DNA from: Henricia sp. BOLD:AAB3569
Lineage: Eukaryota > Echinodermata > Asteroidea > Spinulosida > Echinasteridae
DNA length: 64,000 nucleotides
Reading direction: 5' to 3'
Assembly: GCA_037783545.1 (NCBI GenBank)
Contig: JBBELK010000571.1
Coordinates: 310,001 to 374,000, forward strand
The notes below the pieces were generated by a model. That model was not told the origin of the DNA and did no database searches. It saw only the letters and a program-made list of their open reading frames with translations. This document shows positions 22,165 through 48,473 of the stretch, piece by piece; positions within the stretch are counted from its first letter, which is position 1, and each line of letters begins with the position of its first letter. Position numbers and translations under genes: made by a program.

Positions 22165-22432
22165 TCGAACGAACACCCACCCCTCTTTCCCCGCCTTTCA
22201 CCTCCGGCGTACCGGGTTCGATTTCCGTTCGTGTATGGATTGGGTTTGCAGTCCCTGCATGCTAGACCGCGTGGGTTTTCCTCCAGGAGATTTCCCTGGG
22301 GGTTTTCCTCCAAATTCTGAAACTGCATCTCCTTCTTCGTCGTCCCAAGTTGATAATAAAGTAAAGTTAAAGATAAAACCAGATAGTTTAGGGCATAAAG
22401 GACATTAGTTGCCGAAGATGCCATACAATTAA
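22165..22432 (+). mobile_element. SINE-1 copy, near full length
   Basis: Head with CCCCGCCTTTCACCTC and box B GGGTTCGATTTCC, body TGGATTGGGTTTGCAGTCCC, repeated GGTTTTCCTCC blocks, CTCCTTCTTCGTCGTCCCAA, and tail GCCGAAGATGCCATACAATT. It matches 44334-44624 throughout. Confidence 0.85.
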
Positions 22433-22714
22433 CTAAAACAATTAACAACATGCACCTTAGTATACCCGTTCAATCCTGAGCTCGAGTTCTGCTCTTGTAC
22501 ATTTACAGCCAAACACACACACATACACATGTTCGTTTTACAGACTGTGCAGTGAAGTTCCTTTAAATTACCCATCATTCCAATTGACAGTTTGTTGGGC
22601 ATTTTTTCAATAACATCAAGTACCTTGGCATCCTGAAAATGATCTTTTGAAATCAATATGTGGTAATTAGTCAGTAAATATACGGCGCCGGCGTTCGTTG
22701 ACGTCTATATGCAC
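22433..22714. other. unassigned non-coding sequence
   Basis: Nothing recognised. Confidence 0.3.
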
Positions 22715-35137: not shown

Positions 35138-35605
35138 TACTCACAATAGGTTAGGGATGATTGGTATGTTGTTAATTTTGTTGTTGTTGTTGTTGTATAT
35201 TTTATGGCATCTTCGGCAATTAAGGCCCTTTATGCCATCAACTATACGGTTTTAGCTTTAACTATACTATATTATCAACTTGAGATGACGAAGAAGGAGT
35301 TGCAGTTTTAGAAGTGGGAGGAAAAAACCCAGAGAAATGCCCCAGGGGAAAACCCACGCGGTCAAGTAGGGACTGCAAATCCAATCCACATACACGCCCC
35401 GGATTCGAACCCGGGACGCCAGAGGTGAAAGGCGAGGAAAGAATTGTCAATTTTGGATTTTTTGTCCTCAAATGACCGTTTCCTGTGCATGTGACAAGGT
35501 GTGTCTGTCATGCAGGTACAATTGTCTAATCATATATACAAAATCATACCCTCAGTAAAATATCTGCGTTACACCCCACAATATCCCTAACTCATTGTGA
35601 GTAGT
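35138..35605. mobile_element. possible inverted-terminal element holding a SINE
   Basis: ACTCACAATAGGTTAGGGAT (35139-) is mirrored with few mismatches by ATCCCTAACTCATTGTGAGT (about 35583-35602). A SINE-1 occupies most of the interior. Confidence 0.5.
35180..35443 (-). mobile_element. SINE-1 full-length copy with target duplication
   Basis: Read on the minus strand: head with TTTCCTCGCCTTTCACCTCT and box B GGGTTCGAATCCGGGG, body, CTTCTTCGTCATCTCAAGTT, GCCGAAGATGCCATAAAATA and a (CAA)n tail. Flanked by TTGTTAATTTT (35169-35179) and TTGTCAATTTT (35444-35454), a target duplication with one mismatch, as expected of LINE-driven insertion. Confidence 0.85.
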
Positions 35606-36005
35606 ACTACAACAGAATGGTTATGATTATTGCACGTCGATTCCGTTTGTTGTTTTGAGAAGGTAGAATCGTGACTCGCGCATGAAGGGGGAAATCTTAC
35701 CGCGTCGTTGTTTGCATAATGCCCCGCGGAAATGTGCAGGTGTGTTCAAGCTTGTAAATTCAACCACAGACCTTTTGCGGTGGATTGTTTTCTGTTTTGT
35801 TTTGCTTTTTGTTTTCCCGCTTTAACTGTGACCCTTTGAGGCAATTTTCCCCTGTCGTTTAATTCCGGACATGGTGATGAAAGTCGTGACGTCGTTTCCA
35901 AAATGTCTTTTGTGTGAGCCTTATAGACTTTGTCACGATATTTTTGGACAAATGTGGACAAATGTCCATGAGTTTGGGAAATCTAGATACAGTGAAAAGC
36001 AACTT
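35606..36005. other. unassigned non-coding sequence
   Basis: Nothing recognised. AAAA at 35995-35998 gives a TTTT on the minus strand just downstream of the tRNA-like gene, a possible Pol III terminator. Confidence 0.4.
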
Positions 36006-36077
36006 GGCTCCACCGGGATTCGAACCGCGGACCTTCTGCTTAACGTGCAGACGCCCTACCAATTGAGCTATGAAGCC
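36006..36077 (-). tRNA. tRNA-like gene or tRNA pseudogene (apparent anticodon GTT)
   Basis: The 72-nt cloverleaf has a fully paired acceptor (GGCTTCA/TGGAGCC, one G-U), D-arm GCTC/GGGC with AATTGGTA loop, anticodon stem TCTGC/GCAGA perfect, variable loop AGGTC, and T-loop TTCGAAT. TTTT follows seven bases after the 3' end. Against function: the anticodon loop reads ACGTTAA, so base 33 is C instead of the near-universal T, and the T-stem has two mismatches (CGCGG/CCCGG). The GTT anticodon would be Asn, but the body does not look like an Asn tRNA. Reversing only the anticodon hairpin would give loop TTAACGT with T33 and a Val (AAC) anticodon. Confidence 0.45.
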
Positions 36078-36786
36078 AACTGGTGGTCTCGAATCACGGT
36101 AGTGCAGTTGTTCCTTACTGATTGGGATTGGCTATCACGTGAGCTTAGCAAGCCCTACAGAGGGATAAACCCTTCAATGAGATAACCACCCCTCCCAGAG
36201 ATCATTTAAGATATGCCCCAAAACCCCTGCCCGGCTTGCCCCAATTATTAAGTATGAATAAGTGAACATTTTTAGGGATTATGACGATATGTTTGTGTAA
36301 AAATTCAAAATTAAAGAATCGCCTATTACATACTCATCTGATGCAGTGAATAAACTTTAACATACTCTAAATAATGAATTATGTGCCTATAACGTATTTG
36401 AATGATACTGTATGCGATATTACGATAATGCAAGGAAAACAAATAAACTACATTCCTTGGAGAACACCCCTCGAAATAAATGGTATAATCTCCTCAGAGG
36501 TCAGTGGCTTTGCCCAAAAAGTTAAAGCGACTCGAAACTCGATCGTAAAAAGCCCCCTTTTCCTCTGAACTAATTAAGACAGTTTTTATATGAGTGAAAA
36601 GGAAATATCTTTAACTTTACTTCAACATCTGATCTGGCAGTATCAAATGGTTTTACCATTCGATTTAATGCGCTGACCTCTCAGAAAACGTCGGTCCAGA
36701 TTCGTGTTGACTTCCATAGGAATTTTTTTTTTTAGTATTTGCACCCATTTTTAAATAGATACAAAGCCCAATTTCCCTGCATGGAT
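36078..36786. other. unassigned non-coding sequence
   Basis: No gene or repeat recognised. Confidence 0.35.
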
Positions 36787-38284: not shown

Positions 38285-38510
38285 ACCCAGCAAACACATA
38301 ACATTTTAAAAACATTGTTGAAAGGTTGTAAGCAAAACATTGTGAAACTAACATAAAATAACATTATTAAAACGTTAAAATGTCGTCTAATTGAAAACAT
38401 TTTCTCTATAACATTTTTATAATGTTGTGAAAATGTTAAAACTGTGCAGTCTAAAGACGTTATATTGATAACATTTTAAAAACATTCTTAAAAAGTAATA
38501 TACAAAACAT

Positions 38511-39012
38511 TTGTGAAAAGATACACAGTGACAAAGTATTGTGGCAACGATTCAGCAAGCATTTATTCGCTTCAAACAGACTGCGTGACCCAACAATATA
38601 ATGGTCAACAATTGCCTTTAACATGAGACAAGAATAACATGTACCCAACGGTACGATAATGATACACATGTACCCAACGGTACGATAATGATACACATGT
38701 GCCCAACGGCACATAAACAAGTATACCCAACGGTATAACACGAATTCGCTAACAACGTACCCAAAAGTACGATAAATACAATCGATACCACCATATCGAT
38801 AACCCAAATAAAAGCTTTGTTGACGCATGTCAAAAAGATGGCCAATCGGCCGACTCAAATAGCAATAAAGCTTGAGGGGAGAATGGCTGAGATCCCAGGA
38901 AGGCAAAGAGCATTGGAGCCCGCACTCCCGGGGATAGTTCACTCGACCGTTTGTGCGGACCCCACCGCTGAAAATGTACGATCCCACCTCTCCTCCGGGG
39001 CTCAAACCATCC
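38511..39012 (-). repeat. split direct repeat B2 (502 bp)
   Basis: Identical by eye to 39365-39866 at a fixed offset of 854. It holds a 29-bp tandem motif (GTACCCAACGGTACGATAAT..., three copies at about 38640-38710). The long minus-strand frame through it also appears in B1 and is most likely fortuitous. Confidence 0.85.
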
Positions 39013-39088
39013 AGCCCTCCAACTTAACCAAGCCCATGCAATTTGCTCAAAGCATACAGCCAAGTGGATGCCAGGGGCGGGAGGCGGG

Positions 39089-39366
39089 TCGCAGTCTGTT
39101 ATACGCGAAAGCTAAACCGAAAATGAACAGTTCCCACGGTCTGCAAGTGCACATGCACTATAATTCAGTCGCACCGCGCACGAAGCACGCATGCGCGTTG
39201 TTTCCAGACATGCAAATTGGCACATCAAAGGCGCCGCATTCCAAGTCAAGCGCATTCGCTTTTACACATGTTTGGGGCCAACGGGGGCGCGCGCCCAGAC
39301 ATGACCCGCGCGACCTCGATGTGTCCTTTCACAAATGTGTTTACTCTCGAGCGGGCAAACATTGTT
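39089..39366 (-). repeat. split direct repeat A2 (278 bp)
   Basis: Identical by eye to 45200-45477 at a fixed offset of 6111; starts TCGCAGTCTGTTATACGCGA and ends GCGGGCAAACATTGTT. Its last two bases overlap the start of B1. Confidence 0.85.
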
Positions 39367-39866
39367 GTGAAAAGATACACAGTGACAAAGTATTGTGGCA
39401 ACGATTCAGCAAGCATTTATTCGCTTCAAACAGACTGCGTGACCCAACAATATAATGGTCAACAATTGCCTTTAACATGAGACAAGAATAACATGTACCC
39501 AACGGTACGATAATGATACACATGTACCCAACGGTACGATAATGATACACATGTGCCCAACGGCACATAAACAAGTATACCCAACGGTATAACACGAATT
39601 CGCTAACAACGTACCCAAAAGTACGATAAATACAATCGATACCACCATATCGATAACCCAAATAAAAGCTTTGTTGACGCATGTCAAAAAGATGGCCAAT
39701 CGGCCGACTCAAATAGCAATAAAGCTTGAGGGGAGAATGGCTGAGATCCCAGGAAGGCAAAGAGCATTGGAGCCCGCACTCCCGGGGATAGTTCACTCGA
39801 CCGTTTGTGCGGACCCCACCGCTGAAAATGTACGATCCCACCTCTCCTCCGGGGCTCAAACCATCC
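39365..39866 (-). repeat. split direct repeat B1 (502 bp)
   Basis: Directly abuts A2 with no spacer and ends at CTCAAACCATCC like B2. Beyond this point the two copies diverge. Confidence 0.85.
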
Positions 39867-39884
39867 AAACAGCCAACATTGGTT

Positions 39885-39942
39885 TTTTTTTTTTTTGGTT
39901 TTTTTTTTTTTGGTTTTTTTTTTTTGTTTTTTTTTTTTTTGT
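39885..39942. repeat. interrupted poly-T tract
   Basis: Four runs of about 12 T separated by GG or G (poly-A on the element's sense strand, just inside B1). Lysine-rich frames here are artefacts. Confidence 0.9.
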
Positions 39943-40529
39943 GTGGCATGAGCCCCCATAACAAGAGTTTGGAAAACGCTTGAAAAAACGGCACTCGAAC
40001 ATGCAAACTGTAATGTTTTGATGGTGAACGTGGGAAGAAGACTGTTAAGGACAGCAAGAAACCGACAAATTTGCAATGGCAGGAAAAATCCTCCACTGGC
40101 ATCGGATGTTCTGGCACCCAAGTACCGACTCTTGCAAACAGTAACAAAAATAAAATGCAAATATCTGCACCGTCTTTCTTCCCCGAGCACTTGAAACTTA
40201 CATTATGCAAATTCTGCCCTCCTTAATTCAATGAACACAGATACATGTAGATATAAAACTGTTTCTGCTATTAACAGGAACAACAAAACCCATCAAAACA
40301 AAATGTGTTCGTATAGATGCCTGGACAAAGAATTAACCCCCAAATTGTCACACAAAAACATGTAATTGCAACTGAGGCCTTGTCACTATTGCATCCTACT
40401 GCACAAGTGCAACTGCAAATCCTGAAGATGTCTAAACTCGCCTTGTTAACGAGAACTCCATCTTTGCAGTATAAATGCCTTCATGCAGCTAAAATTTCAG
40501 GATGAAAGATAACTGAAATTTATCACCAA
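39943..40529. other. unassigned internal sequence of the retrotransposon
   Basis: No frame or motif recognised. Confidence 0.35.
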
Positions 40530-41375
40530 TTTGTTTTTAAAACACGAATCAGAAGATCAAAGTGTTGCAGAAAAAGGGGCAAACCCAAATCTGTTTTCAT
40601 TTCAGAAATGTTACCCTTTCTCTACTTAAAAATTGTCATAGAGGAAACCCACAATTAAAAACAAAGAAAGAACATTACAGTTCAACATTACAATTCAAAC
40701 CGTAACTGTACAGTAGTCCACTGATCCATTTTTGACCCAAACCAACTTGTTGGGATTGGTGCAATTGACATACTAAACAAACTCAGTAAACTGTTACAGA
40801 TCATAACACCAAGAAGTCACTGAAAATGACAAAAACTTTGTACACTAGACATTGGAGATTTCCTCTGTTGTCCTGAGATGATATCACGGATTTGCTCATG
40901 AATATGTAAATTCATTAACATAAAATTATAAAACTTGCAATTATAGCAATTTGTTTTTACACACGGATCAGAAATCAAAGTGTTGCAGAAAAAGGGGCAA
41001 ACTCAACTCTGTTTTCATTTCAGAAAGAAGTTACCTTTTCTCTACTTCAAAATTTTCTTAACAGACGAGGTCGCGGTTTATTGCTAGTCATGGAGGGAAC
41101 CCACAGTTGAAAAACAAAGAAAGAACATTACATTTCAAACAGTAACAGTAGTCCACTGATCCATTTGTGACCCAAACTTGTTGGGATTGGTGCAAATGAC
41201 ATACTAAACAAACTCAGTAAACTGTTACAGATCATAACACCAAGAAGTCACTGGAAATGACAAAAACTTTTGTACACAAGTCATTGGAAATTTCCTCTGT
41301 TGTCCCGAGATGATATCACGGATTTGCTCATGAATATGGAAATCATTAGCATAACATTAGAAAACGTGCGATTAC
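40530..41375. repeat. tandem duplication of about 430 bp
   Basis: About 40530-40955 is repeated at 40963-41375: AAAGTGTTGCAGAAAAAGGG, CAGTAGTCCACTGATCCATT, TTGTTGGGATTGGTGCAA and ATGATATCACGGATTTGCTC recur in order, with a few percent divergence plus indels. Confidence 0.85.
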
Positions 41376-41458
41376 AATAAAACGGAACAATCAAATTTTC
41401 TGAAGTTGACCGAAATGTGTAAAACACACCCTCTACTATTAGTATATTTCATAAAACC

Positions 41459-41844
41459 CTATTTCACATGTCCTTTAGGCCAACCTTTATAATTAAGCCG
41501 GGTTAAAATCGAGGACCAAAAGATGTGGCGGCATGGCATGAAAATGCGTGATGTGGTTATTGCGGCTGACACCGTACCGCACTGCGACAATCCTAGGCTG
41601 AAATTCGACCCACGTCATTGGAACCTAGGTGCAAAATTAATATTGACGGTAGCACGGGACTCGACTCCGTAACAGTCGCTTGAGCTCCTAAAGGAAGTCT
41701 CAGCGTCCCGCCGCTACCGAACCAGTGAACCTCTGTACCGTGGGTGCCAAGGGATGTCGCCTGTGTAGCCAATGCGCGGTCCTTAACCCTGCGTATGAAG
41801 CTGGCGTCCATCATCCACACGATGCGTGTCTCACCTGTAGGCAT
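41459..41844 (-). pseudogene. SGNH/GDSL-hydrolase-like segment, frameshifted
   Basis: The frame at 41844-41593 reads with the layout of the SGNH-hydrolase-like domain found in transposon proteins: block I-like VWMMDASFIRR (the catalytic GDS is degenerate as MDAS), a HWFGSGGTLRLP block, then block III ILHLGSNDVGR with the conserved N. It stops at a TAG right after. About 35 codons further on, in another frame, comes IFWSSILTRLNYKG, matching the family's WSDILPR.-W motif, so at least one frameshift separates the parts. On the sense strand the segment follows a pyrimidine-rich TTTTTTATGCCTACAG, which could be a splice acceptor. Family SGNH domains hydrolyse ester bonds; this copy lacks an intact serine motif and is presumably inactive. 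Its place near the 3' end of the element fits Ngaro organisation. Confidence 0.6.
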
Positions 41845-42049
41845 AAAAAACGTTCCTTTGTGGGTATTTAATTAGGAGATCGGAACTGATTCCGATCACC
41901 TACAATGTATTACTACATGTATTGTACGATTTAGTCGTTTTTCTTTTCTTTTTCCACGCAAACGTTTCCCTAGCTTTTCTTCAAAACGGATCAAGCTATG
42001 AACTTGACACTTGGTAGGAACCTCAACCCCCATGTAAAGGTGTGTACAC
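41845..42049. other. unassigned internal sequence of the retrotransposon
   Basis: Nothing recognised. Confidence 0.3.
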
Positions 42050-44040
42050 AGGTGTGACGTCACTGTGACGTCATCGGGTATCAAATTACAAAACAAATGA
42101 CCCAAAATGCATATTTTAAAATGCTTCCGTCTGGAAAACCACGTGACCCAGGATCTTCGCATAGCGTATAGATCAGATCATGAGCGTATAGATCAGATCG
42201 TGGCCTGCAATTTGCTTCGTGTGGGCATTTTATCTGACCCTTCCTTCTGGGTTAAATTTGAGGTCAAAGTTCAACAGAAACGAAAATCTAAATTGTTGCA
42301 CTTATTGAGTAGCAATGGCCATAAAACCAAGCTGAATCTTTAAGAAACTAAGTACAGGCATAGGTCCAATGGCAGACTTTCACCAGCAGCATGTAAAATC
42401 ATGATGCCATCACGTGTGACGTCATCGTGACGTCATCAAGTATCAAATTACATCCCAGAAATAACAAAAAAATGCATGTTTTAAAATGCTTTCGTTTCGA
42501 AAACTACTCGACCCAAGATCTTCGAATTTGGAAGGCTTATGGATCAGATAGTGAGCACAAGTTTCTTAGTGTGGGCATTTTCGTCTGACCCTTCCTTCTT
42601 GGATCAATTGGAGGTCAAAGTTCAACGAAAACGGAAATCTCAGTGTTTACACTTACCGAGCAACGTCCAGTGCCCATCAAACCAAGCTGGATCTTTAGTA
42701 AATTAGATACAGGCATGAGCCCTATGGCAGACTTTCACCAGCATGTACCATTATGGCATCAAGTGTGACGTAATCATGACGTCATCAGGTGTCAAATTAC
42801 AAAAATTCAAAAGTTATTATTTCCAAAATTCAAATCTCAAGAACCGTAATAGATACTTGAACAATTCTTTCACAGCATGAAAAGTCTAAATGAACTGAAC
42901 AATCAAACGATGTCATGACCCCTGTGTGACGCCTACTTCCGGTCCAAACCGGAAGTTGTTCGAAAATTGAATTTGTTGAGCATTTTGAATGCAAAAGATT
43001 CAAAGTGGTAGTGAATTTTACCATATTTCTATGGAACGAAATGTTTCCACACATGTGGACCTTTTGACTAAACCATTGGTGACGTCATCACCTGATGACG
43101 TAATCATAACGTCATCAGGTGTCAAATTACAAAAATTCAAAGGTTATTATTTCCAAAATTCAAATCTCAAGAACCGTAATAGATACTTGAACAATTCTTT
43201 CACAGCATGAAAAGTCCAAATGAACTGATCGATCAAACGATGTCATGAACCCTGTGTGACGCCTACTTCCGGTCCAAACCGGAAGTCGTTCGAAAATTGA
43301 ATTTGTTGAGCATTTTGAATGCAAAAGATTCAAAGTGGTAGTGAATTGTACACATGTGGACCTTTTGACTAAACCATTGGTGACGTCATCACATGGACGG
43401 TGGTTACGTAATGTGGTGTCAAGTTACGCAAGTTTGGAGCTGAATTGTTTAAAACTGCTGTATCTTGAGAACTACAGCAGATATTTGCATGATTCCTTCG
43501 CCAACATTGAAACACTTGATGTTTATCAAATTGTTGAACAATTTGTGCACAACCTTGTGACGTCATGATGCCGTCACAGGTGTCAAATTACACAATTCAA
43601 AGGTCATTATTTCAAAATTCAAATCTCAAGAATCGTAATAGATACTTGAACAATTCTTTTCCAGCATGATAGGTCTCAATGAACTGAACAAATCACACAA
43701 TGACATGACCCCTGTGTGACCCAAACCTCCGGTCCAAACCGGAAGAGGTTCGAAAATGTACAATTTGTAGCATTTTGAATGCAAAAGAGCCAAAGTGGTA
43801 GGGAATTTCACCATAGTTCTACGGAACGAAATGTTCCCGCACATGTGGACTTAATGACTACAAATATAGCCCTGATGACGTCATCACGTGCACGGTGGTT
43901 ACGTAAAATAATCTCAAATTCAACATCTTGAGAACTGTAATAGATATTGGAAAGATTCTTTCACCACATATGCATGTCCAAACTTGTTCTTCAGTATCTT
44001 TGAAAAATCTGTGCATACAATAGTGACGTCATGTTGAGAT
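42050..44040. repeat. array of ~330-360-bp degenerate repeats marked by TGACGTCA
   Basis: Two unit types. Type 1 (42050-42414, 42415-42765) shares TGACGTCATCGNGTATCAAA, ATGCATNTTTTAAAATGCTT, TCTGACCCTTCCTTCT and AAACCAAGCTG. Type 2 (42766-43097, 43098-43400 and a diverged copy from 43555) shares GTCATCAGGTGTCAAATTAC, CAAGAACCGTAATAGATACT, CGGTCCAAACCGGAAG and CACATGTGGACCTTTTGACT. About ten perfect TGACGTCA sites occur; this is the consensus for CREB/ATF factors. A 21-bp duplication (GCGTATAGATCAGATC) lies at 42166-42200. Confidence 0.75.
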
Positions 44041-44323
44041 TGACTTTCAATATTGACGACATCAGATACACAATTTTAGCGTGGAATAGTCAGCGTCATG
44101 TCTTGAGAATTGCAATACTTTTTCAACCTCAAACAACTCAAGTTGTCAAACAATCTCAAAGCTGTGTCGTCATCATCTTATTAATGTCTATGTCGCCCAA
44201 TCACCTTGCGTTTGTAAAAACACAAACGCGAAGCTCAGTTATTGCTGGCTTTGAAATCGGACCCAAGCACAACTTCTCTCGTAGGTGTTGCTTGGGAGCC
44301 TATAAATTAAACCACTGTCATAG
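44041..44323. other. unassigned internal sequence of the retrotransposon
   Basis: Nothing recognised. Confidence 0.3.
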
Positions 44324-44333
44324 GAGAACGCCC

Positions 44334-44624
44334 AGAGGGCGGTCGGGTTGGCCTACGGGTTCTTTCCTCGCCTTTCACCTCTGGCGTCCCGGGCTCGAAT
44401 CCGGGGCGTGTATGTGGATTGTGTTTGCAGTCCTTACTTGACCGCGTGGGTTTTCCCCTGGGGCGTTTCTCTTGGGGTTTTCCTCCCACTTCTAAAACTG
44501 CAACTCCTTCTTCGTCATCTCAAGTTGATAAAAAAGTATAGTTAAAGCTAAAACCGTAAAGTTTATGGCAAAAAGGACCTTTAATAGTCGCCGAAGATGC
44601 CATAAAAAATACAACAACAACAAC
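44334..44624 (+). mobile_element. SINE-1 full-length copy with 10-bp target duplication
   Basis: Flanked by GAGAACGCCC at 44324-44333 and 44625-44634. Head with GTTCTTTCCTCGCCTTTCAC and box B GGGCTCGAATCCGGGG, body GTATGTGGATTGTGTTTGCA, CTCCTTCTTCGTCATCTCAA, and end GCCGAAGATGCCATAAAAAA followed by (ACAAC)n. The reference copy for SINE-1. Confidence 0.9.
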
Positions 44625-44634
44625 GAGAACGCCC

Positions 44635-45199
44635 GGCCACAAGTATTTTCCCCGGACAAGTCTGCAGGCCCCGAGATCTGCCCTACCAACAAATTAGAGA
44701 ATCCCGTGTAAACTGGGATTTGCTCACCCGGTATAAATGGGGCATACGTGAACGAAAAAAACTCCCGTTGTTAACGTGGCCCTGGAAGCAGCTTCTCCGC
44801 CGATTGTCCCATGACCCCCGGTTCCGATGGCTGATGGAGGGGCGGCACCTCGTGTAGATGTCGTGCTGTACTACATGTACTACGGCTACTATTAGTGGTA
44901 TTTACAGCCAGTAAGGTCGGGTACTGGTGTTGGCAGATCCTCGGCGTTTACTGCTGGTACTTTCGACGCGTTGCCTGTCTATTGTACCCGTCCTCGCCTG
45001 GCTCGTTTGGTGACCGGGTTGCCCGTGTTGCTGAGTTTTCTGCCTCGTTTACCTATGACTAGCTGTCCGTAGTTCCGAGATTAGGCTGGAACTCAATTGT
45101 TTAACGTTCTTACTTATTGCCAGTTCACCCCTGATGGCTGGCTACATGTCAACGGCAACGAATATTAAGGCAGGATAGAGCTAGGCCCAAGCAACCCGA
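44635..45199. other. unassigned internal sequence near A1
   Basis: In a minus-strand element this would be the 5' region after A1 where gag-like coding would be expected. I see no frame that supports it. Confidence 0.4.
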
Positions 45200-45477
45200 T
45201 CGCAGTCTGTTATACGCGAAAGCTAAACCGAAAATGAACAGTTCCCACGGTCTGCAAGTGCACATGCACTATAATTCAGTCGCACCGCGCACGAAGCACG
45301 CATGCGCGTTGTTTCCAGACATGCAAATTGGCACATCAAAGGCGCCGCATTCCAAGTCAAGCGCATTCGCTTTTACACATGTTTGGGGCCAACGGGGGCG
45401 CGCGCCCAGACATGACCCGCGCGACCTCGATGTGTCCTTTCACAAATGTGTTTACTCTCGAGCGGGCAAACATTGTT
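45200..45477 (-). repeat. split direct repeat A1 (278 bp), element 5' end
   Basis: Identical by eye to A2 (39089-39366). It ends at AAACATTGTT, where the 232-bp array of the outer element resumes with TTTAAATAGCG. Confidence 0.85.
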
Positions 45478-47009
45478 TTTAAATAGCGTAAAAGAAACGT
45501 TATCAAAATGTTTTACTTCGTGGTCACTGAAAACGTTTTGCGTATAGCATTAAAATAACGTTCTTAAAACGTTAAACTGAAGTCTAATTGCAAACATTTT
45601 CTCTATAACATTTGTATAATGTTGTGAAAATGTTAAAACTGTCCAGGCTAAAGACGTTATTTTGATAACATTTTAAAAACATTCTTAAAAGTAATATACA
45701 AAACATTTTTTAAATAGCGTAAAAGAAACGTTATCAAAATGTTTTACTTTGTGGTCACTGAAAACGTTTTGCGTATAGCATTAAAATAACGTTCTTAAAA
45801 CGTTAAACTGAAGTCTAATTGAAAACATTTTCTCTATAACATTTTTATAATGTTGTGAAAATGTTAAAACTGTGCATGTTAAAGACGTTATATTGATAAC
45901 CTTTGTAAAACATTCTTAAAAAGTAATATACCAAACATTGTTCAAATAGCGTAAAAGAAACGTTGTCAAAATGTTTTACTTCGTGGTCACTGAAAACGTT
46001 TTGCGTATAGCATGAAAATAACGTTATTAAAACGTTAAACTGAAATCTAATTCAAAACATTTTCTCTATAACATTTTTATAATGTTGTGAAAATGTTAAA
46101 ACTGTGCAGTCTGAAGACGTTATATTGATAACATTTTAAAAACATTCTTAAAAAGTAATATAAATTTTTTTTTTTAAATAGCGTAAAAGAAACGTTATCA
46201 AAATGTTTTACTTCGTGGTCACTGAAAACGTTTTGCGTATAGCATTAAAAAAACGTTCTTAAACGTTAAACTGAAGTCTAATTGAAAACATTCTCTCTAT
46301 AACATTTTTATAATGTTGTGAAAATGTTAAAACTGTGCATGTTAAAGACGTTATATTGATAACCTTTGTAAAACATTCTTAAAAAGTAATATACCAAACA
46401 TTTTTAAAATAGCGTAAAAGAAACGTTATCAAAATGTTTTACTTCGTGGTCACTGAAAACGTTTTGCGTATAGCATGAAAATAACGTTATTAAAACGTTA
46501 AACTGAAATCTAATTGAAAACATTTTCTCTATAACATTTTTATAATGTTGTGAAAATGTTAAAACTGTGCAGTCTTAAGACGTTATATTGATAACATTTT
46601 AAAAACATTCTTAAAAAGTAGTATACAAAACATTTTTTAAATTGCGTAAAGGAAACGTTATCAAAATGTTTTACTTCGTGGTCACTGAAAACGTTTTGCG
46701 TATAGCATTAAAATAACGTTCTTAAAACGTTAAACTAAAGTCTAATTGAAAACATTTTCTCTATAACATTTGTATAATGTTGTGAAAATGTTAAAACTGT
46801 GCAGGCTAAAGACGTTATTTTGATAACATTTTAAAAACATTCTTAAAAGTAATATACAAAACATTTTTTAAATAGCGTAAAAGAAACGTTATCAAAATGT
46901 TTTACTTCGTGGTCACTGAAAACGTTTTGCGTATAGCATTCAAATAACGTTCTTAAAACGTTAAACTGAAGTCTAATTGAAAACATTTTCTCTATAACAT
47001 TTGTATAAC
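45478..47009 (+). repeat. 232-bp tandem array, seven copies
   Basis: AAATAGCGTAAAAGAAACG (or a one-base variant) recurs at 45481, 45712, 45944, 46176, 46407, 46639 and 46870 (231-232 bp apart). Each unit contains CTTCGTGGTCACTGAAAACG, TTTGCGTATAGCAT and many AACATT/AACGTT hexamers. The last copy breaks at 47009. The 225 bp at 38286-38510 are the detached start of the same sequence. Confidence 0.95.
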
Positions 47010-47105
47010 GTGGGAGCGTGTGTGGTCTAGTGGGTATGAAGCGGGACTCCCAACCAGAGGTTGGGGGTTCGAGCCCCACTTCGACCAACGTGTCTGTGTC
47101 CCTGG
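47010..47105 (+). mobile_element. tRNA-like SINE head inside the array
   Basis: GTGGTCTAGTGGGTATGAAG (box A-like), GGGGGTTCGAGCCCC (box B with T-stem) and the SINE-style TGTGTCCCTGGGCAA. The middle folds as CCCAACC-AGA-GGTTGGG and is not a normal anticodon arm, so it is not a functional tRNA. It marks the switch from 232-bp to 183-bp units. Confidence 0.7.
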
Positions 47106-47490
47106 GCAACGATGTTGTGTCCAAATGTTTTTACAACGTTTTTAAAACCACACATTTTAATGTTAAAAAAACATTTTTCGGAAACATTGCTATAACATTG
47201 TTAAAACGTTCTTACGGCGTTTGATAAACATTTCAAAAACATTTCCGTGATGTTTTGACAATGTTAATAAAACGTTATAAAAACATTTTCGCGATGTTGT
47301 GTCCAAATGTTATTGCAACGTTTTTAAAACCACACATTTTAATGTTAAAAAAACATTATTCGAAAACATTGCTATAACATTGTTAAAACGTTCTTACGAC
47401 GTTTGATAAACATTTCAAAAACATTTCCGTGATGTTTTGACAATGTTAATAAAACGTTATAAAAACATTTTAATGACGTGTTATAAACGT
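47106..47490 (+). repeat. 183-bp repeat, two copies
   Basis: GATGTTGTGTCCAAATG at about 47110 and 47293. The unit includes AACCACACATTTTAATGTTA and TAACATTGTTAAAACGTTCT. Confidence 0.9.
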
Positions 47491-47925
47491 CTTTTTCTAG
47501 CTGTTAAAAAATGCAATGCATTGTGGGATTACATGTAACTCAACAGATTTACCGTGTAAAAAGGCTAATTGGCTTCAGTTTGGGCAGTTGTTTTGATGTT
47601 TGTAAATGGGTTTTTGCTTGATAATAGACAAATTGGCAATTGTCGGGGATGAACAAACTCAAAGTGGCGAGAGATTATAATTACATTTGGTATTCGGTTA
47701 GTAGGTGTGTGCCAACCATGGTTACAGGGTGCAGGTTTTTGTGGAGCATAAATAGAAGTCGCGCATAAAGCTAATGTATGAGTAGTGTATGTAATGTATG
47801 AGTAGTGTAATGTATGTGTAATGTATGAGTAGTGTATGAGTAGTGTACGAGTCATGTAATGTTAAGTAATGTATGAGTAATGTATGAGGCGTCAGGAAAC
47901 GACGTCTTTGAAATTACGTCTTTTG
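47491..47925. other. unique core of the outer element with a GTATGAGTA microsatellite
   Basis: Not part of the hexamer repeats. Contains GCAATGCATTGTGGGATTAC and, at 47775-47885, imprecise (GTATGAGTAGTGTAAT) repeats. The 96-codon minus frame is driven by this microsatellite. Confidence 0.6.
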
Positions 47926-48473
47926 ACATTTTAACAACATTTCCGTGATGTTTTGACAATGTTAATAAAACGTTATAAAAACATTTTCACGATGTTGTGT
48001 CCAAATGTTATTACAACGTTTTTAAAACCACACATTTTAACGTTAAAAAAACATTTTTCGGAAACATTGCTATAACATTGTTAAAACGTTCTTACGGCGT
48101 TTGATAAACATTTCAAAAACATTTACGTGATGTTTTGACAATGTTAATAAAACGCTATAAAAACATTTTCGCGATGTTGTGTCCAAATGTTATTGCAACG
48201 TTTTTAAAACCACACATTTTAATGTTAAAAAAACATTTTTTTGGAAACATTGCTATAACATTGTTAAAACGTTCTTACGACGTTTGATAAACATTTTAAA
48301 AACATTTCCATGATGTTTTGAATCTGTTAATAAAACGTTATAAAAACATTTTCACGATGTTGTGTCCAAATGTTATTATAACGTTTCTAAAACCACACAT
48401 TTTAATGTTAAAAAAACATTTTTTGGAAACATTGCTGTAACATTTTCGGAAACATTTTAAAAATGTTATTACA
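47926..48473 (+). repeat. 183-bp repeat, three copies
   Basis: GATGTTGTGTCCAAATG at about 47992, 48173 and 48355 (181-182 bp apart), leading into the right terminus. Confidence 0.9.

Follow-up and report, generated by a model that had tools for sequence, protein, structure and literature searches.

The window, as the whole 64,000-nucleotide stretch of DNA analysed here is called, carries on its minus strand an element in which two direct repeats, A and B, are interleaved in the order A1-interior-B1-A2-75 bp-B2. In sense orientation the left (5') terminal repeat, A1, occupies 45200-45477 and includes a TT core at 45476-45477. It is followed by a non-coding interior of 5332 bp (39868-45199); by B1, the internal copy of the right terminal repeat (39365-39867, with a TT core at 39365-39366); by A2, the internal copy of A (39089-39366), which abuts B1; by a spacer of 75 bp (39014-39088); and by B2, the right (3') terminal repeat (38511-39013), in which the sequence of the element begins at 38513 and the TT core lies at 38511-38512. 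Without its cores the element extends from 38513 to 45475.

Pairwise comparison of the two A segments (278 bp) and of the two B segments (503 bp) of the window copy gives 0 differences in each case, and identity over such lengths is beyond chance. An earlier note on this DNA had described two interleaved pairs of direct repeats, the B1/A2 abutment and a recent event; all of these are borne out, including the 278 bp of the identical A repeats, and the identity of the repeats supports the recent date. The B pair exists as claimed and is identical, but measures 503 bp rather than 502 bp, and the gap between A2 and B2, also real, is 75 bp and not 76 bp. On the plus strand the last two bases of A are the first two of B, forming one TT (39365-39366) that is common to both, and the internal junction reads CATTG-TT-GTGAAAAG, a single TT between exact termini. 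Since B1 abuts A2, the B1A2 block reproduces the two ends of the element in joined form. The window copy thus has the layout of split direct repeats, with A1 equal to A2, B1 equal to B2 and B1 abutting A2.

The two repeats differ in their content. The CpG observed/expected ratio of A is 1.35, compared with 1.00 for the whole window, and A holds a CCAAT that overlaps ATTTGCAT at 147-157, as well as GCGCATGCG at 171. CCAAT, ATTTGCAT and GCGCATGCG are promoter elements, and by inference from these motifs and the CpG ratio A1 is a candidate promoter region. A hairpin excess was not found in A (2 compared with 1.49 in shuffles, 219 of 500 shuffles reaching 2), and its RNA folding is near that of shuffled sequence (z 0.17). 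In B, an AATAAA in the sense orientation begins 57 bases before the end of the repeat, and an array of six small hairpins lies at 39495-39654 of the minus strand in B1 and, in the same form, at 38641-38800 in B2. The hairpins start 25-34 bases apart, and the loop CAAC (plus strand) is kept in four of the six; their stems differ and stay self-complementary. From one unit to the next, changes in one arm of a stem are matched by changes in the other, which makes selection for the pairing plausible. B yields 9 overlapping hairpin records, corresponding to 7 distinct hairpins, where shuffles average 1.75 and 1 of 500 reaches 9, and its RNA fold has a z of -2.54; two of the six hairpins belong to a 29 bp tandem repeat and are therefore not independent, so that the hairpin count overstates the case. 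That helper proteins recognise these hairpins is a guess.

The interior contains 76-105 stops per frame in the six frames, somewhat below the 108 of shuffled sequence. No Pfam family is reached at E below 0.05, either by the six frames of the window interior with X at stops or by ten stop-to-stop ORFs; the matches to CC_BshC, CEP76_N, FF and DUF4136 (E 0.051-0.21) all fall under their cut-offs and were rejected. With stops in all six frames and no Pfam support, a coding interior was rejected. Reverse transcriptase (RT), RNase H and recombinase were not found in the six frames of the window interior; this includes the tyrosine recombinase (YR) gene by which YR elements with split direct repeats are recognised, and the combination of RT and RNase H with no methyltransferase domain by which Ngaro is recognised. 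No Rfam family reaches its gathering score in the interior; the Rfam matches are limited to weak miRNA-like ones and a single sRNA match. Ten other ORFs of the window have no Pfam match up to E 0.1.

An A-rich tract (sense orientation) at 39883-39940 of the minus strand adjoins B1; this A/T tract is the sole length-variable place in the first 900 interior bases of five copies. The interior also houses a dispersed SINE-like repeat (44360-44624), which matches 35183-35443 (minus strand) at 92% and 22184-22441 at 80%, and stretches of degenerate repeated modules (about 42026-43960 and 40527-41374). The modules of 42026-43960 carry the palindrome TGACGTCA, of which there are 10 in the interior.

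The element belongs to a multi-copy family. A search of the 740.7 Mb genome with A gave 40 scored matches of 66 candidates, which is a lower bound. Manual pairing of the 40 scored matches by contig and strand gives 15 pairs and leaves 10 matches unpaired. The spacing is 6043-6111 bp in 13 of the 15 pairs, 6701 bp in one, on C380, and 9970 bp in another; the last of these, at C638 (416332 and 426302, with equal scores), is possibly a longer relative whose interior is coding or holds a nested insert. The bit scores of A1 and A2 are equal in 12 of the 15 pairs, the exceptions being C597 and two pairs of C328, amid a range of 455-502 bits for all 40 matches. Equal bit scores are not proof of identity between A1 and A2, yet such equality is what would be expected if each move used one template. 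A1 equals A2 wherever both were read, namely in the window and in both copies at C1029.

Five copies were read (the window, C597, C630 and two at C1029), representing four independent insertions. At C1029 the two copies appear to stem from a single insertion that was duplicated along with the array around it: their left flanks show 0 differences in 924 bases and their right flanks 3 in 1502, and they share the same single B2 difference. Further pairs that lie close together, for instance on C1338 and C328, may likewise go back to one duplicated insertion. B1 and B2 differ at 0, 0, 0, 1 and 1 of 503 positions in the five copies, and both single differences trace to one insertion, given that the C1029 copies look duplicated. 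Between copies, B1 differs at 0-1 positions, B2 at 0-2 and A2 at 0-2; because B hardly varies between copies, its identity within a copy offers little contrast, and the comparison depends mostly on the scores of A.

The block B2-spacer-A2-B1 recurs in all four other copies read, and the 75 bp spacer is identical in five of five. The idea that this spacer is a departure special to the window copy is therefore wrong. The interior was compared at sampled ends, over 900 bp next to B1 in all five copies and over 1500 bp next to A1 in the window and at C1029. Next to B1 the window differs from each of the four others by 3-8 substitutions, and these four differ among themselves by 0-2; next to A1 the window differs from the two C1029 copies by 8-9. 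Near-identical interior ends elsewhere, together with the constant pair spacing, suggest that members of the family carry the non-coding interior along when they move, and seem to move without genes. The earlier note had proposed that the interior has lost RT, RNase H and recombinase; their absence stands, but a loss in the window copy itself does not, and the genes were probably not lost there.

The element interrupts a satellite array with a 232 bp unit, which lies at 45476-47008 on one side and at about 38300-38512 on the other. When the window flanks are joined with one TT and compared with an intact 232 bp unit, 232 of 238 positions are identical and no gap is needed. The array thus resumes cleanly, as had been claimed, and this empty site with one TT supports a clean insertion of the kind that fits a circle. 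In the window the left border reads AAACATTTGT, and the internal junction and the right border both read AAACATTGTT. All four independent left borders read TTT-GTGAAAAG, the hyphen marking the border, preceded by ACA, TCA, TCC and TCA; at the three loci outside the window the bases before TTT-GTGAAAAG are CTCC, GTCA and TTCA. Both independent right borders that were read, in the window and at C1029, are CATTG-TTT. The four left flanks have no similarity to one another, so that the same terminus is found at four dissimilar loci. At C1029 the flanks joined with TT give CTCCTTTTCGCACG, which is intact twice in the left array; the units of the right array are 11 bases longer at the joining point, from which it follows that this element sits where two unit variants meet. 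The insertion there separates units of 193 bp on the left (L007 1-921) from units of 206 bp on the right (L006 1969-3278). At C630, too, the uninterrupted site is present twice in the left array.

The shared core is TT, perhaps TTT. A long recombination core, AAACATTGT, was considered and rejected, as it is missing from the target flank at three other independent loci; the shared border motif described earlier is literally right in the window, but only TT is common elsewhere. Since the other loci have no AAACATT before the border, the AAACATT at the left border of the window is the satellite's own. At the borders read there is no target duplication beyond a core of 2-3 bp, and this core is also present at the internal junction. 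In DIRS1-like elements, a 3 bp circle junction is described as recombining with an identical target, with no duplication and with ends that are mostly NTT (PMC3266345); the DIRS1-like elements of Xenopus are given as having TTT ends (PMC9210276). A core of TT, perhaps TTT, would fit this junction model (PMC3266345). YR recombination sites are usually described as two inverted arms of 11-13 bp round 6-8 bp (PMC3212892). The internal junction shows imperfect inverted pairs but no arms of that size, a point against recombination by a YR.

The split-direct-repeat part of the proposed Ngaro-like nature holds; the assignment to Ngaro does not, as the layout is also described for PAT and VIPER/TATE (PMC4157794, PMC6681497) and no distinguishing protein was found. 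Like the window element, Ngaro elements are reported with split direct repeats in the form A1-[interior]-B1A2B2 and a size of about 6-7 kb (PMC8547959), and with repeats identical within a copy, for example DIRS-53_XT with an A of 236 bp and a B of 152 bp (PMC9210276). Unlike Ngaro, the window element is without detected Gag, RT/RNase H and YR, and has a 75 bp spacer between A2 and B2. The VIPER/TATE elements of kinetoplastids are described with the same A1, B1, A2, B2 order (PMC6681497) and with no target duplication (PMC12278014), but encode their own proteins, none of which was found in the window interior. SIRE of Trypanosoma cruzi, a short form of VIPER (PMC6681497) that is called a truncated non-autonomous version (PMC6681497, PMC12278014), is described as A2 and B2 with about 30 bp of SIRE-specific sequence between them, a counterpart of the A2-75 bp-B2 part of the window element (PMC6681497); as a single short A-B unit, however, it lacks the complete set of split repeats and the long non-coding interior. 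PAT, Kangaroo and TOC, of the DIRS group, are likewise described with split direct repeats and carry RT, methyltransferase and YR (PMC4157794), whereas none of these was found in the window interior. DIRS1-like elements, for all the likeness of their junction, have inverted terminal repeats and internal complementary regions, not split direct repeats. Crypton, described as having a YR with no reverse transcriptase and no long direct repeats (PMC3212892), was tried and rejected, as the window element has long split direct repeats and no YR was found in its interior.

The window element is probably a recent copy of a non-autonomous family of tyrosine-recombinase retrotransposons with split direct repeats, integrated as a circle. 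The element works like one with split direct repeats and is not filed as Ngaro, because the proteins that define Ngaro were looked for in the window interior and not found. The RNA intermediate, the circle, the recombinase and its helper are putative. The RNA would start in A1, where the promoter-like motifs are, and end in B2 past the AATAAA, and would thereby lack both outer ends of the element. For split direct repeats in general, the customary argument is that an internal block restores the outer ends lost from the RNA. Here the internal B1A2 block would be the template that restores the lost ends and closes the circle. A tyrosine recombinase would then come in trans from an autonomous relative and cross the TT of the circle with a TT of the target, with no target loss and no duplication other than the TT.

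The layout can formally be written as A-interior-B followed by A-spacer-B, and could thus arise as a head-to-tail dimer of another type of element, either Penelope-like or a DNA transposon that moves as a circle, in which a full A-interior-B unit is joined to an internally deleted A-75 bp-B unit; the 10 of 40 A matches that are unpaired could be solo units. We regard this origin as unlikely, given that the same block is found in all 5 copies read, that 13 of 15 pairs have one spacing and that a single TT stands between the units, as at the borders. Penelope-like elements often carry a hammerhead ribozyme in the terminal repeat, a frequent and not universal feature, and there is no hammerhead among the Rfam matches.

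A somewhat poorer candidate is a dead Ngaro copy that was once coding and whose genes have decayed or been replaced in the window copy alone. Its layout would be that of Ngaro, and its size is near the 6-7 kb reported for that group (PMC8547959), but the identical repeats leave little time for decay, the four other copies are near-identical next to B1 (two of these also next to A1), and 13 of 15 A pairs share one spacing; such an origin is improbable.

The TT core can equally be called a 2 bp target duplication, and with TT at both borders the element could formally be the product of a DDE integrase, LTR-like and itself non-autonomous. The repeats A and B, however, are split and do not form whole LTRs at both ends; TT(T) is found at every border read, which is unexpected from a sequence-tolerant integrase; and the internal block has the same TT between the ends. 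All this makes an integrase product very improbable. Hardly any weight is left for a segmental or tandem duplication or an assembly artefact with no transposition, for although duplication of a single insertion together with its array seems to account for the two copies at C1029, one terminus is common to four loci whose flanks are dissimilar, and the empty site of the window matches intact array units.

End regeneration in elements with split direct repeats is a model drawn mainly from sequence, and a protein-less family in which every repeat is kept would reveal the cis requirements: A, B and the B1A2 block, and perhaps the hairpins and the spacer of 75 bp. Because tandem arrays supply natural empty sites, the TT core can be placed with single-base precision. 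As exact phrases, non-autonomous DIRS, Ngaro or YR were not found in the open-access literature, nor was a long non-coding family that keeps all split repeats seen among the papers listed, the latter being a weak statement.

Of the four independent insertions, three are embedded in tandem arrays whose units are unrelated (232 bp, 193/206 bp and 309 bp), and the fourth is separated by 443 bp from a degenerate array with a 61 bp unit. By comparison, arrays with units of at least 100 bp make up about 5% of the window, the target array included. An insertion preference for tandem arrays is suggested by these four loci, which are the best A matches and a non-random sample; survival in neutral DNA would yield the same pattern. 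Among the open-access papers listed, none has a title or abstract opening that reports a satellite-array preference of YR elements. One may tentatively imagine that non-coding circles borne by RNA parasitise a YR retrotransposon in trans and prefer satellite arrays, with the B hairpins serving as a tag recognised by the helper. If the satellite preference were true, retroelements would thereby have a means of seeding satellite DNA or of breaking it up.

Two satellites, with units of 232 bp and 182-183 bp, lie at 45476-48444, and both are crowded with AAACATT. Between the 232 bp and 182 bp arrays, the sequence at 47009-47109 resembles the head of a tRNA-derived SINE (GGTTCGAGCCCC), a likeness judged by eye, ARAGORN making no call there. 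A tRNA-Asn (GTT) gene is located at 36004-36078 on the minus strand.
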